Shown: positions 57,584 to 62,320 of the stretch, piece after piece | How the letters are laid out: the number at the start of each line of letters is the position of its first letter | Position numbering within the stretch: position 1 is the stretch's first letter | From: Sphingomicrobium flavum | GTDB taxonomy: Bacteria; Pseudomonadota; Alphaproteobacteria; Sphingomonadales; Sphingomonadaceae | Reading direction: 5' to 3' | Assembly (NCBI RefSeq): GCF_024721605.1 | Contig: NZ_CP102630.1 | Coordinates: 1-64,000, forward strand | DNA: 64,000 nucleotides | Translations under genes and position numbers: made by a program | The notes under the pieces: model-generated | The model's input: the letters and a program-made list of their open reading frames with translations, nothing else | Databases searched by the model: none | Told to the model about the DNA's origin: nothing

Positions 57584-57593
57584 AGTGACGTTC

Positions 57594-59126
57594 ATGGGTA
57601 CGACGATCGAAGAGCTGGAGCGCAAGCGTGAGCAGGCGCGTCTCGGGGGCGGACAGAAGCGGATCGACCGCCAGCATGAAAAAGGCCGGCTGACCGCGCG
57701 AGAGCGGATCAGTGTCTTGCTCGACGAGGACAGTTTCGAAGAGCTCGACATGTTCGTTGAGCATAATTGCACCGATTTCGGCATGGAAGAGACCAAGGTT
57801 CCGGGCGACGGGGTCGTCACCGGTTCGGGCACCATCAATGGGCGCCTGACCTATGTCTTCGCGCAGGATTTCACCGTCTTCGGCGGGTCTTTGTCCGAGC
57901 GGCATGCCGAAAAGATCTGCAAGATCATGGATGCGGCGATGAAGGTCGGCGCGCCGGTGATCGGCCTCAACGATTCAGGCGGCGCGCGCATCCAGGAAGG
58001 CGTGGCCAGCCTTGGCGGCTATGCCGAAGTGTTCCAGCGCAACGTGCTGGCCTCCGGCGTGGTGCCGCAGCTCTCCGTCATCATGGGGCCGTGCGCGGGC
58101 GGCGCGGTCTATTCGCCCGCCATGACCGACTTCATCTTCATGGTGGAGGATAGCTCCTACATGTTCGTCACCGGGCCCGATGTGGTGAAGACGGTGACCA
58201 ATGAGGTGGTGACGCAGGAAGAACTGGGCGGCGCGATCACCCATACGCAGAAATCGGGCGTGGCCGATGTCAGCTTCGCCAACGATATCGATGCCTTGCT
58301 GGCGACGCGCGAATTCTTCTCCTATCTGCCGCTGTCCAACCGGCATGAGGTGCCCGAAGTCCCGACCGATGATCCCTGGGACCGTCTGGAAGACAGCCTC
58401 GACAGCGTGATCCCGCCTAACGCCAACCAGCCCTATGACATGCATGAGGTGATCAGGAAGGTGGCCGATGAAGGCCGCTTCTTCGAAATCCAGCCCAAGC
58501 ATGCCGCCAACATCATCGTCGGTTTCTGCCGGATCGAGGGCAAGACGGTGGGCGTGGTGGCGAACCAGCCGATGGTGCTGGCCGGCTGCCTCGATATCAA
58601 CGCGTCGAAAAAGGCCGGGCGCTTCGTGCGCTTCTGCGATGCCTTCGACATTCCGATCCTGACCTTTGTCGACGTGCCGGGTTTCCTGCCGGGCGTGGGG
58701 CAGGAGCATAATGGCATCATCAAGCATGGCGCCAAATTGCTGTTCGCCTATGCAGAAGCGACGGTGCCCAAGATCACGGTCATCACGCGCAAGGCCTATG
58801 GTGGCGCCTATGATGTGATGGCGTCCAAGCATCTGCGCGGCGATTTGAACTATGCCTGGCCGACTGCGGAAATCGCGGTGATGGGGGCCAAGGGCGCGGT
58901 CGAAATCATCTTCCGCCAGGACATGGACGATCCCGACAAGATCGCGGAGAAAACGAAGGAATATGAAGACCGCTTCGCCAACCCCTTCGTGGCGGCGAGC
59001 CGCGGTTATATCGACGAAGTGATCATGCCGCATTCGACCCGCAAACGGGTGGCGCTGGGGCTTCGCAAGCTGCGCGACAAGCAGCTGGAGAATCCCTGGA
59101 AGAAGCATGATAATATTCCGTTGTGA
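57594..59126 (+). CDS. pccB: Propionyl-CoA carboxylase, beta subunit
   Basis: About 510 residues, the usual length. The carboxyltransferase signature includes [16 protein letters not shown] and VDVPGFLPG, with AYGGAYDVM. It transfers carboxyl from biotin on the alpha subunit to propionyl-CoA, giving methylmalonyl-CoA. ATG 57594 follows AGGAGA; an in-frame GTG at 57585 is too close to the ribosome site. It starts the propionate operon and overlaps the next gene by GTGA. Confidence 0.95.
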
Positions 59127-60088: not shown

Positions 60089-62320
60089 ATGACAGACAAA
60101 GTGACCCGTTCCGACTGGCAGCAGCTTGCGGACAAGGAATCGAAGGGGCGCGACCTTCAGGTCACGACGCCCGAACATATCACGCTGAAAAATGTCTATG
60201 GGCCGGAGGATGTGGACGGGCTGGATCCCGGTTATCCCGGCCTGCCGCCTTATACCCGCGGGCCCTACGCCACCATGTATTCGGGAAGGCCGTGGACGAT
60301 CCGGCAATATGCGGGCTTCTCGACGGCCGAAGAGAGCAACGCTTTTTATCGCCGCAACCTGGCGGCCGGGCAGAAGGGGCTTTCGGTTGCTTTCGATCTG
60401 GCCACCCATCGCGGCTATGATAGCGATCATGAACGAGTCGCGGGCGATGTCGGCAAAGCGGGCGTCGCGATCGATACCGTCGAGGATATGAAGCTGCTGT
60501 TCGACGGCATCCCGCTGGATGAGATGTCGGTCAGCATGACCATGAACGGCGCGGTGCTGCCGGTGATGGCTTTCTATATCGTCGCGGGCGAGGAGCAGGG
60601 CGTGGACCATGCCCAGCTGACTGGCACGATCCAAAACGACATCCTCAAGGAATTCATGGTGCGGAACACCTATATCTATCCGCCCGCGCCATCGATGCGG
60701 ATCGTGTCCGACATCATCGCCTATACGAGCGAGGAAATGCCGCGCTTCAACAGCATTTCGATCAGCGGCTATCATATGCATGAGGCTGGTGCGACGGCGG
60801 TGCAGGAGCTGGCCTACACGCTGGCCGATGGCGTTGAATATGCGCGCACTGCGATGGCGGCGGGGATGGAGCTGGACAGCTTTGCCCCGCGTCTGTCCTT
60901 CTTCTTCGGCATCGGCATGAACTTCTTCATGGAAGTGGCCAAGCTGCGCGCCGCGCGGACCCTGTGGGCCGAGCTGATGACCGGCCTTGGCGCCAAGTCC
61001 GAGAAATCCAAGCTGCTGCGCACCCACTGCCAGACCTCTGGCGTGTCGCTGACCGAGCAGGATCCCTATAACAATATCGTGCGCACCACGATCGAGGCGA
61101 TGGCCGCGACACTGGGCGGCACCCAGTCGCTCCACACCAACAGCTTCGACGAGGCGATCGCGCTGCCGACCGATTTTTCGGCGCGGATCGCGCGCAACAC
61201 CCAGCTGATCCTGGCCGAGGAAAGCGGGATCACCGCGGTCGCCGATCCGCTCGGCGGGTCATATTATGTCGAGGCGCTGACGGCGGAACTGGTCGAGAAG
61301 GCCAAGGAGCTGATCGACGAGGTAGAAGCAGCTGGCGGCATGACCAAGGCGGTCGCTGCCGGCCTGCCCAAGCGCCATATCGAGGAAGCGGCGGCGGAAC
61401 GGGCGGCGAAGGTCGATACCGGCGCGACGGTGATCGTCGGCGTCAACAAATATCGCCTCAAGGACGAGCCCGAGATCGACATTCTCGACATCGACAATGC
61501 CAAGGTGCGCGCCAGCCAGATTGCGCGGATCGAGGATGTGAAGGCCAAGCGCGACAAGGCCGAAGTGAAGGCTGCGCTCGACGCGCTGGAAGAAGCGGCG
61601 CGATCTTCCCCCTCCGCTCACCCTGAGCTTGTCGAAGGGTCAGCGGAGGCAGGCGCTGAGAGGCTTCGACAGGCTCAGCCTGAGCGGGGTGGGGGTGCTG
61701 GTGAACAGAATTTGTTGAGGCTGTGCGTGAGAGCCGCCCGCGCGCGGGCGACCTTGGGTGAAATCTCCTATGCGCTGGAACGCGCCTTCGGGCGCTACGA
61801 TACCAAGCCGCAGCCCGTGTCCGGCATTTACGGCCAGCGCGCCGATGAGGCGTGGGAAGCGGCCAAGGATGGCACCGTCAAGGTCACCCAGCGCCTCGGC
61901 CGCGCGCCCAGGATGCTGGTCGCCAAAATGGGGCAGGACGGGCATGACCGCGGCGCCAATCTGGTCAGCTCCGCCTTTGGTGATCTCGGCTTCGATATCG
62001 TTGCCGGACCGCTGTTCCAGACGCCGGCGGAAGCGGCGAAGATGGCGGTCGATGAAGGCGTCGACGTGGTCGGCGCGTCCAGCCTGGCCGCGGGTCACAA
62101 GACGCTGATCCCCGAACTGATCGGGCACCTGAAAGAGATGGGTCGCAGCGACATCAAGGTCATCGCCGGCGGCGTCATCCCGCCGCAGGATTATGCATTC
62201 CTGCGCGATAAAGGAGTGCAGGCCATCTTCGGGCCGGGCACGAACCTCGCCGATGCGGCCGATGAGGTGCTGGCGCTCCTCGGCCACAACCGCCCGCCCA
62301 AGGAAGAGGTGGCAGAGTAA
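60089..62320 (+). CDS. scpA: Methylmalonyl-CoA mutase with palindrome-encoded linker insertion
   Basis: About 743 residues, some 25-30 more than usual. It converts (R)-methylmalonyl-CoA to succinyl-CoA with B12. The substrate barrel occupies the first ~500 residues; the cobalamin domain has [11 protein letters not shown] with His619, then SLAAGHKT and GGVIPPQDY. Residues about 506-540 ([11 protein letters not shown]... [12 protein letters not shown]) are encoded by an inserted palindromic repeat in the linker. An AGGGAGG ribosome site supports ATG 60089. It is in the propionate operon. Confidence 0.95.
61609..61695 (+). repeat. Sphingomonad palindromic repeat inserted in scpA
   Basis: Arms 61615-61637 and 61664-61686 are inverted repeats matching at 20 of 23 positions, with cores TGAGCTTGTCGAAG and CTTCGACAGGCTCA. 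An inner AGCGGAGG/CCTCCGCT pairing adds to the structure. This is the intergenic palindrome common in sphingomonads, here in frame inside a gene. Confidence 0.85.

Follow-up and report, generated by a model that had tools for sequence, protein, structure and literature searches.

The window, a stretch of 64,000 nucleotides that makes up the first part of the Sphingomicrobium flavum contig NZ_CP102630.1, contains a gene for methylmalonyl-CoA mutase (scpA/mutA). The product scores 1193.5 against the NCBIfam mutase equivalog NF006944 (cut-off 876) and matches both PF01642 and PF02310, placing it among mutase large subunits. Its AlphaFold model superimposes on human MMUT (8dyj) in Foldseek with TM scores of 0.91/0.95. 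Between Arg505 and Asn541, a loop of 35 residues (506-540) replaces the GKE, GDE or GDG of the nearest relatives. The model is confident just outside this loop (pLDDT about 97) and poor within it (43-53), where a single weak helix (519-528) is predicted.

A reading made from sequence only had proposed that an in-frame palindrome at 61609-61695 adds about 30 residues to an enzyme that otherwise keeps its motifs. The inverted arms do lie inside the open frame, the net gain over the nearest relatives is 32 codons, and the invariant catalytic and B12-domain positions of the mutase alignment are all present. The in-frame palindromic insert is thus confirmed as real, and the enzyme would appear to have stayed unbroken, with its function retained. 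The coordinates given in that reading span the palindrome, and the stretch that differs from relatives is slightly longer. Its placement of the insert between the catalytic and B12 domains holds in part: the insert precedes the B12-binding match, but it lies inside the PF01642 match and not exactly between the two models.

Features of the mutase gene and its palindromic insert (positions in the window)
Feature	Positions	Strand	Basis or remark
Methylmalonyl-CoA mutase (scpA/mutA)	60089-62320	+	Open frame, stop 62318-62320; 743 aa plus stop
PF01642 (MM_CoA_mutase), residues 26-568, insert inside	60164-61792	+	Pfam profile match
Last helix before insert, residues 490-505	61556-61603	+	AlphaFold model
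Enlarged loop	61604-61708	+	35 codons vs 3 in nearest relatives, net +32 codons
Palindrome left arm, 30 nt	61608-61637	+	83% complementary to right arm
Repeat element core, CCGCTCACCC...CCTGAGCGG	61614-61687	+	Compared with consensus of 13 other twin copies
Palindrome right arm, 30 nt	61664-61693	+	
First helix after insert, residues 542-551	61712-61741	+	AlphaFold model
B12-binding domain, PF02310, residues 608-723	61910-62257	+	Pfam profile match

The inserted DNA is a dispersed, multi-copy element in its own genome. With up to 2 mismatches, the word CCTGAGCNTGTCGAAGG occurs twice in the window where 0.04 matches are expected; its exact form is found 18 times in the genome, and a looser arm core (CTGAGCN{2,3}GTCGAAG) 35 times, with no matches to the corresponding reversed controls. 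A chance palindrome is ruled out by these counts, the last of which is the genome-wide tally that the sequence-only reading had proposed as a check. Twin inverted arms are present in 14 copies including that of the mutase, which equals the consensus of the 13 others throughout both arms, differs from it in a shorter spacer, and agrees at 64 of 74 consensus positions. When genes are called by GC3, 12 of those 13 twins lie outside coding-like frames, the remaining one being near the end of a coding-like frame of 156 residues. Bacterial genomes are mostly coding, and selection against genic copies is therefore likely. An assembly artefact is unlikely, as the genome is a single contig of 2.34 Mb, and inserts are also present in three other genomes of few contigs (G009, G057 and G064, with 5, 1 and 3).

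REPINs are pairs of inverted palindromic arms that are moved by RAYT transposases. The window element resembles them in having two inverted arms with a short spacer, and in being dispersed and mostly intergenic. It differs in that no Y1_Tnp gene was found in its genome: a profile search with PF01797 gave 0 matches, while the same search gave matches in 5 of 14 control genomes. Movement by a RAYT in this genome was accordingly rejected.

The insert-free form that the sequence-only reading had suggested looking for is found in the nearest relatives in the tree (G018, G034 and G001), which have a linker of 60 residues between the anchors and whose genomes contain 0, 1 and 0 arms of the family to which the window element belongs (family A, arms with GTCGAAG). 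Elsewhere in the genus the same loop is repeatedly occupied. From a sample of 71 genomes, five without a mutase match (G026, G027, G035, G037, G050), one that matched only partly (G067) and one with an unreadable linker (G066, L171) were left out; among the remaining 64 mutases, 16 have inserts at a loop that otherwise has 3-4 codons. A search of 159 genomes across the family with an insert-free query matched 150, of which 25 were split at the linker, 123 were contiguous and 2 could not be resolved (G210, G233). Thus 25 of 148 resolved genomes are split; 24 of these were read, and G220 was counted by inference from two weak matches. The lack of an insert in the 123 contiguous genomes is judged from alignment span, and 30 of them were read.

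With the 16 of the genus, one from another genus (G072), those of L064, L065 (Sphingomonas yabuuchiae NS355) and L077, and those of 22 fetched family genomes, 42 insert-bearing genes were read, and the frame runs through the insert in every one. The inserts add 19-79 residues; the insert of 79 (L363, G187) is a tandem duplication in which the peptide VRPEP...STSSTRTDMSNTIADKNSP is repeated. Drafts of at least 100 contigs make up 12 of the 16 insert-bearing genus genomes and a minority of the 22 at family level. Two linkers that are longer by 2 (L143, G062) and 4 residues (L066) may carry deletion scars, and the VQDER of the G062 linker is similar to the right-hand end of one family-A insert (L033). 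One genome has a further mutase-like match, which is interrupted by a TGA stop (G124:C4:2681-3256).

The recurrence is confined to one site. In an alignment of 85 mutases, all 20 inserts of at least 10 residues fall at a single column (517 of 723), and no insert of that size occurs at any other internal site. Outside the family, none of 92 readable mutases has an insert at the loop, their linkers being 60-66 residues long. These 92 comprise 58 of the loci L078-L140 (59 of 63 were readable, and L090, a Sphingomonas, was removed, taxa being assigned from record titles), 3 genomes of order level, and 31 of 36 that were added at that level; unreadable linkers were those of L081, L109, L117, L140, L340, L342, L344, L349 and L351.

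In 41 of the 42 genes the insert contains palindromic-repeat DNA, among which three or more dissimilar families can be told apart. By arm pattern, 15 inserts belong to family A and 22 to family B (CCTCCCC...GGGGAGG), loose family-C matches inside A or B inserts being disregarded. The remainder are one composite of A and B, two of family C (CCCCGC...GCGGGG), one other palindrome with self-matching inverted arms (L077), and one insert that is not recognisably a repeat (L364, G196). Allowing 1-2 mismatches, the three arm patterns match 40 of 42 inserts, compared with 60 of 1348 flanking windows of the same length and 18 of 210 shuffled inserts. Of the 42 inserts, 14 still match these loose patterns when reversed; 13 of the 14 are family B, which makes this control weak for that family. 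The insert folds more strongly than every sampled nearby window of its length in 35 of 42 genes (18 of 20 and 17 of 22); the other 5 of the 22 family-level inserts do not exceed all their neighbours. A spacer of conserved sequence among relatives is ruled out, since the inserts vary in length and sequence.

Unrelated sequence at the same place in relatives had been named in the sequence-only reading as something that would speak against it, and such sequence is literally what was found. As 41 of 42 inserts are nonetheless palindromic-repeat DNA, the claim is generalised rather than refuted, and the proposal that a palindromic repeat became coding sequence in the mutase is supported.

Inserts are also repeats within their own genomes in the same-genus genomes, those of L064, L065 and L077, and G072, and may be so in further family members, from which samples of 20 kb were taken. 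Six same-genus genomes with family-A inserts contain 35, 117, 54, 8, 9 and 11 arms of that family (the three low counts being those of G063, G046 and G070), where the median of 48 insert-free genomes is 2. Ten genomes with family-B inserts have 6-39 family-B palindromes, against an insert-free median of 1. With the arms of the insert itself subtracted, these differences within the genus are significant by Mann-Whitney test (p 8e-7 for family B, p 0.0017 for family A). When kinship is taken into account by independent pairs, insert presence and repeat load are not significantly linked (median p 0.0625, range 0.008-0.69, from 8 pairs). Of the 47 genus genomes on the tree that lack an insert, 13 contain at least 10 repeats. 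The genomes of L064, L065 and L077 contain 74, 357 and 74 palindromes of the searched pattern (controls 1, 4 and 1), and G072 contains 32 of its insert type, 2 of them inside the insert (control 0). Twenty stretches of 20 kb from other insert-bearing family genomes yielded 12 arms, compared with 0 in controls; in 6 of the 20 there is a blastn match to the genome's own insert, and in 1 of 20 to the reversed insert.

The number of events was estimated from two quick trees, both based on the mutase gene alone. In the first (85 rows), 20 inserts need 18 changes, and branches with SH-aLRT of at least 95 force 12 of these. In the second, which has 133 rows (22 partial; the long branch of G007 excluded, and only fetched genomes representing the insert-free family members), 42 inserts need 25 gains or losses, of which 18 are forced by supported branches. 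The trait is clustered on the second tree beyond chance (25 changes vs a shuffled mean of 36), so that some inserts are inherited, and the changes may include losses. The mutase loop has gained or lost repeats on the order of twenty times, involving at least three dissimilar families.

Five readings of a family-A arm with a 2-nt centre are open, and the mutase does not use them equally. Among 21 exact family-A arms in 12 genes, some of which may share descent, all 10 in sense orientation encode (P/A/T)E(L/P)VE, and of the 11 in antisense orientation 5 encode LRQAQ and 6 STGS/STSS; the open readings LSLSK and FDRLR are absent from this set. Elsewhere, both can be found in some coding-like frames that are short or terminal. 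The confinement of mutase inserts to hydrophilic readings points to selection at the level of the protein.

A loop of TruB is probably a second hotspot, judging from the genes read. Inserts are present in 20 of 30 TruB loci (including L241 and L245 of G057 and G064, and L251-L270), a share that is inflated because the loci were the best matches when 68 genomes were searched with a query that has the insert. Several of these inserts look like palindromic repeats by eye; that of L259 does not. Inserts in TruB and in the mutase go together (10 of 14 vs 6 of 47, p 5.6e-5) in a test that ignores kinship and scores unread TruB genes as insert-free from alignment splits.

Repeats were also noted in other genes. 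In mutL of the window genome (G000, near 626446; L024), a single arm encodes PSTGSGQ, which is missing from four relatives. An ABC ATPase has repeat-derived residues before its C-terminal domain, apparently at the same site, in two species (L212, L242). A carboxyltransferase (PF01039) of G057 contains an in-frame family-A twin (L233), and the window's own carboxyltransferase, at 57585-59126, is without that peptide. A MurD-like ligase also holds a repeat. Two candidates were not counted: an RluA-like gene (near 1471708), in which an arm reads PSTGSGQ and alignment to E. coli RluA gives no net insertion, and the N-terminus of metH (near 1483621), where the start codon is unsure.

We consider it quite probable that repeats land widely, that most genic copies are selected away, and that a few permissive loops keep them. 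A putative mobiliser would scatter the repeats over the genome, and selection would then remove most copies that fall in genes. A few loops, that of the mutase and probably one of TruB, would retain them, those of the mutase in hydrophilic frames. The twin palindrome of the window would have entered the mutase after the split from the nearest relatives, and may have stayed because it is in frame, free of stops, and located in an inter-helix turn that tolerates extra length. The same loop would have captured dissimilar palindromic families many times across the Sphingomonadaceae.

The repeats, or the machinery that moves them, might instead recognise the DNA of the loop, in which case recurrence would reflect insertion bias and not selection. 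Family-B inserts start at the same codon in 19 of 22 genes, mostly as AAT-CCTCCCC or NNT-CCTCCCC, as a preferred target would produce; shared descent would also give this. Of 13 outer family-B copies at other places in G057 and G064, 12 likewise have a T before CCTCCCC, and this T may belong to the end of the element. Against such a preference, the loop is shared by families A, B and C, whose sequences differ, and family A is found with either arm first and at varying distance from the left anchor. TruB, a different gene, shows a similar pattern, and the hydrophilic readings point to selection on the protein. We therefore regard target-site preference as unlikely. That the loop is favoured as an adaptive linker, repeatedly recruited because an mRNA hairpin at the catalytic/B12 junction or a longer flexible tether aids folding or B12-domain motion, is in our estimate quite unlikely.

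A single ancestral insertion in the Sphingomonadaceae, later excised precisely from most lineages and replaced by other repeats in the rest, could account for the clustering of inserts on the larger tree. It could also explain the possible scars in L143 and L066, and the span of 588 nt in nine contiguous family genomes, about 4 residues above most. We nevertheless find it very unlikely: all 30 of the contiguous family-level genes read and 47 of 48 insert-free genes of the genus have exactly 60 residues between the anchors, as if never inserted, and supported branches force at least 18 changes. Sampled congeners differ in insert presence in eight other genera (by alignment split), and in one genus (g81) one species has family A (L353) and the other family B (L354). 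It is scarcely credible that the insert marks a dying or inactive mutase: it does look young in the window genome, which means that the low Ka/Ks on either side (0.07-0.13, compared with 0.09 between insert-free relatives) mostly reflects earlier history, but these conserved flanks are joined by intact invariant positions, and the frame is open in all 42 insert-bearing genes read.

In-frame palindromic repeats as such are of a known kind, since Rickettsia palindromic elements (RPEs) and intragenic REPs have already been reported. RPEs are the classic precedent for in-frame palindromic repeats in apparently functional proteins, as introduced in passages of PMC10969869 and PMC3733652. The window mutase likewise has a palindromic repeat in frame in a conserved gene, missing from close orthologues, and its protein may be functional too. 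It differs in host lineage, in size (a core of 74 nt vs an element of about 150 bp), and in that dissimilar families here converge on one loop.

GTAG- or CGTC-tagged REPs and REP dimers have been described within ORFs, where dimers or groups account for over half of the inserts and lengthen the product by 20-30 residues (PMC3733652). The same work lists truB of Erythrobacter litoralis and Sphingopyxis alaskensis as REP-bearing, and reports two Xanthomonas species in which REPs occupy nearly the same position of recB. Members of this REP superfamily end in a GTAG or CGTC tag, or one of its variants TGTC and CCTC, that adjoins the stem. CGTC stems measure 8-9 bp, and in nearly every case their first two positions are a complementary A and T (PMC3733652). 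In the window genome, the twins mostly read CCGCTCACCCTGAGC, with no GTAG or CGTC tag, and some single copies read TGTCCTGAGC. The consensus arms do not begin with A and T, and recurrence at the mutase loop is many-fold. The word "methylmalonyl" is absent from the main text of PMC3733652, whose target ORFs are listed in its Additional file 3. Among the titles and abstract openings listed in literature searches there was no earlier report of a mutase-loop hotspot, and the repeat word cctgagcctgtcgaag had no match in the literature text searched. What is new, as far as these searches go, is that several families have converged many times on a single loop.

In-frame palindromic repeats have so far been described mostly as scattered cases. 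The mutase loop is a natural insertion-scanning experiment that shows where a protein tolerates new sequence, and comparing its inserts tests whether the reading frame they encode is under selection. The question of how new protein segments arise from selfish DNA thereby becomes testable, with enzyme assays on natural variants.
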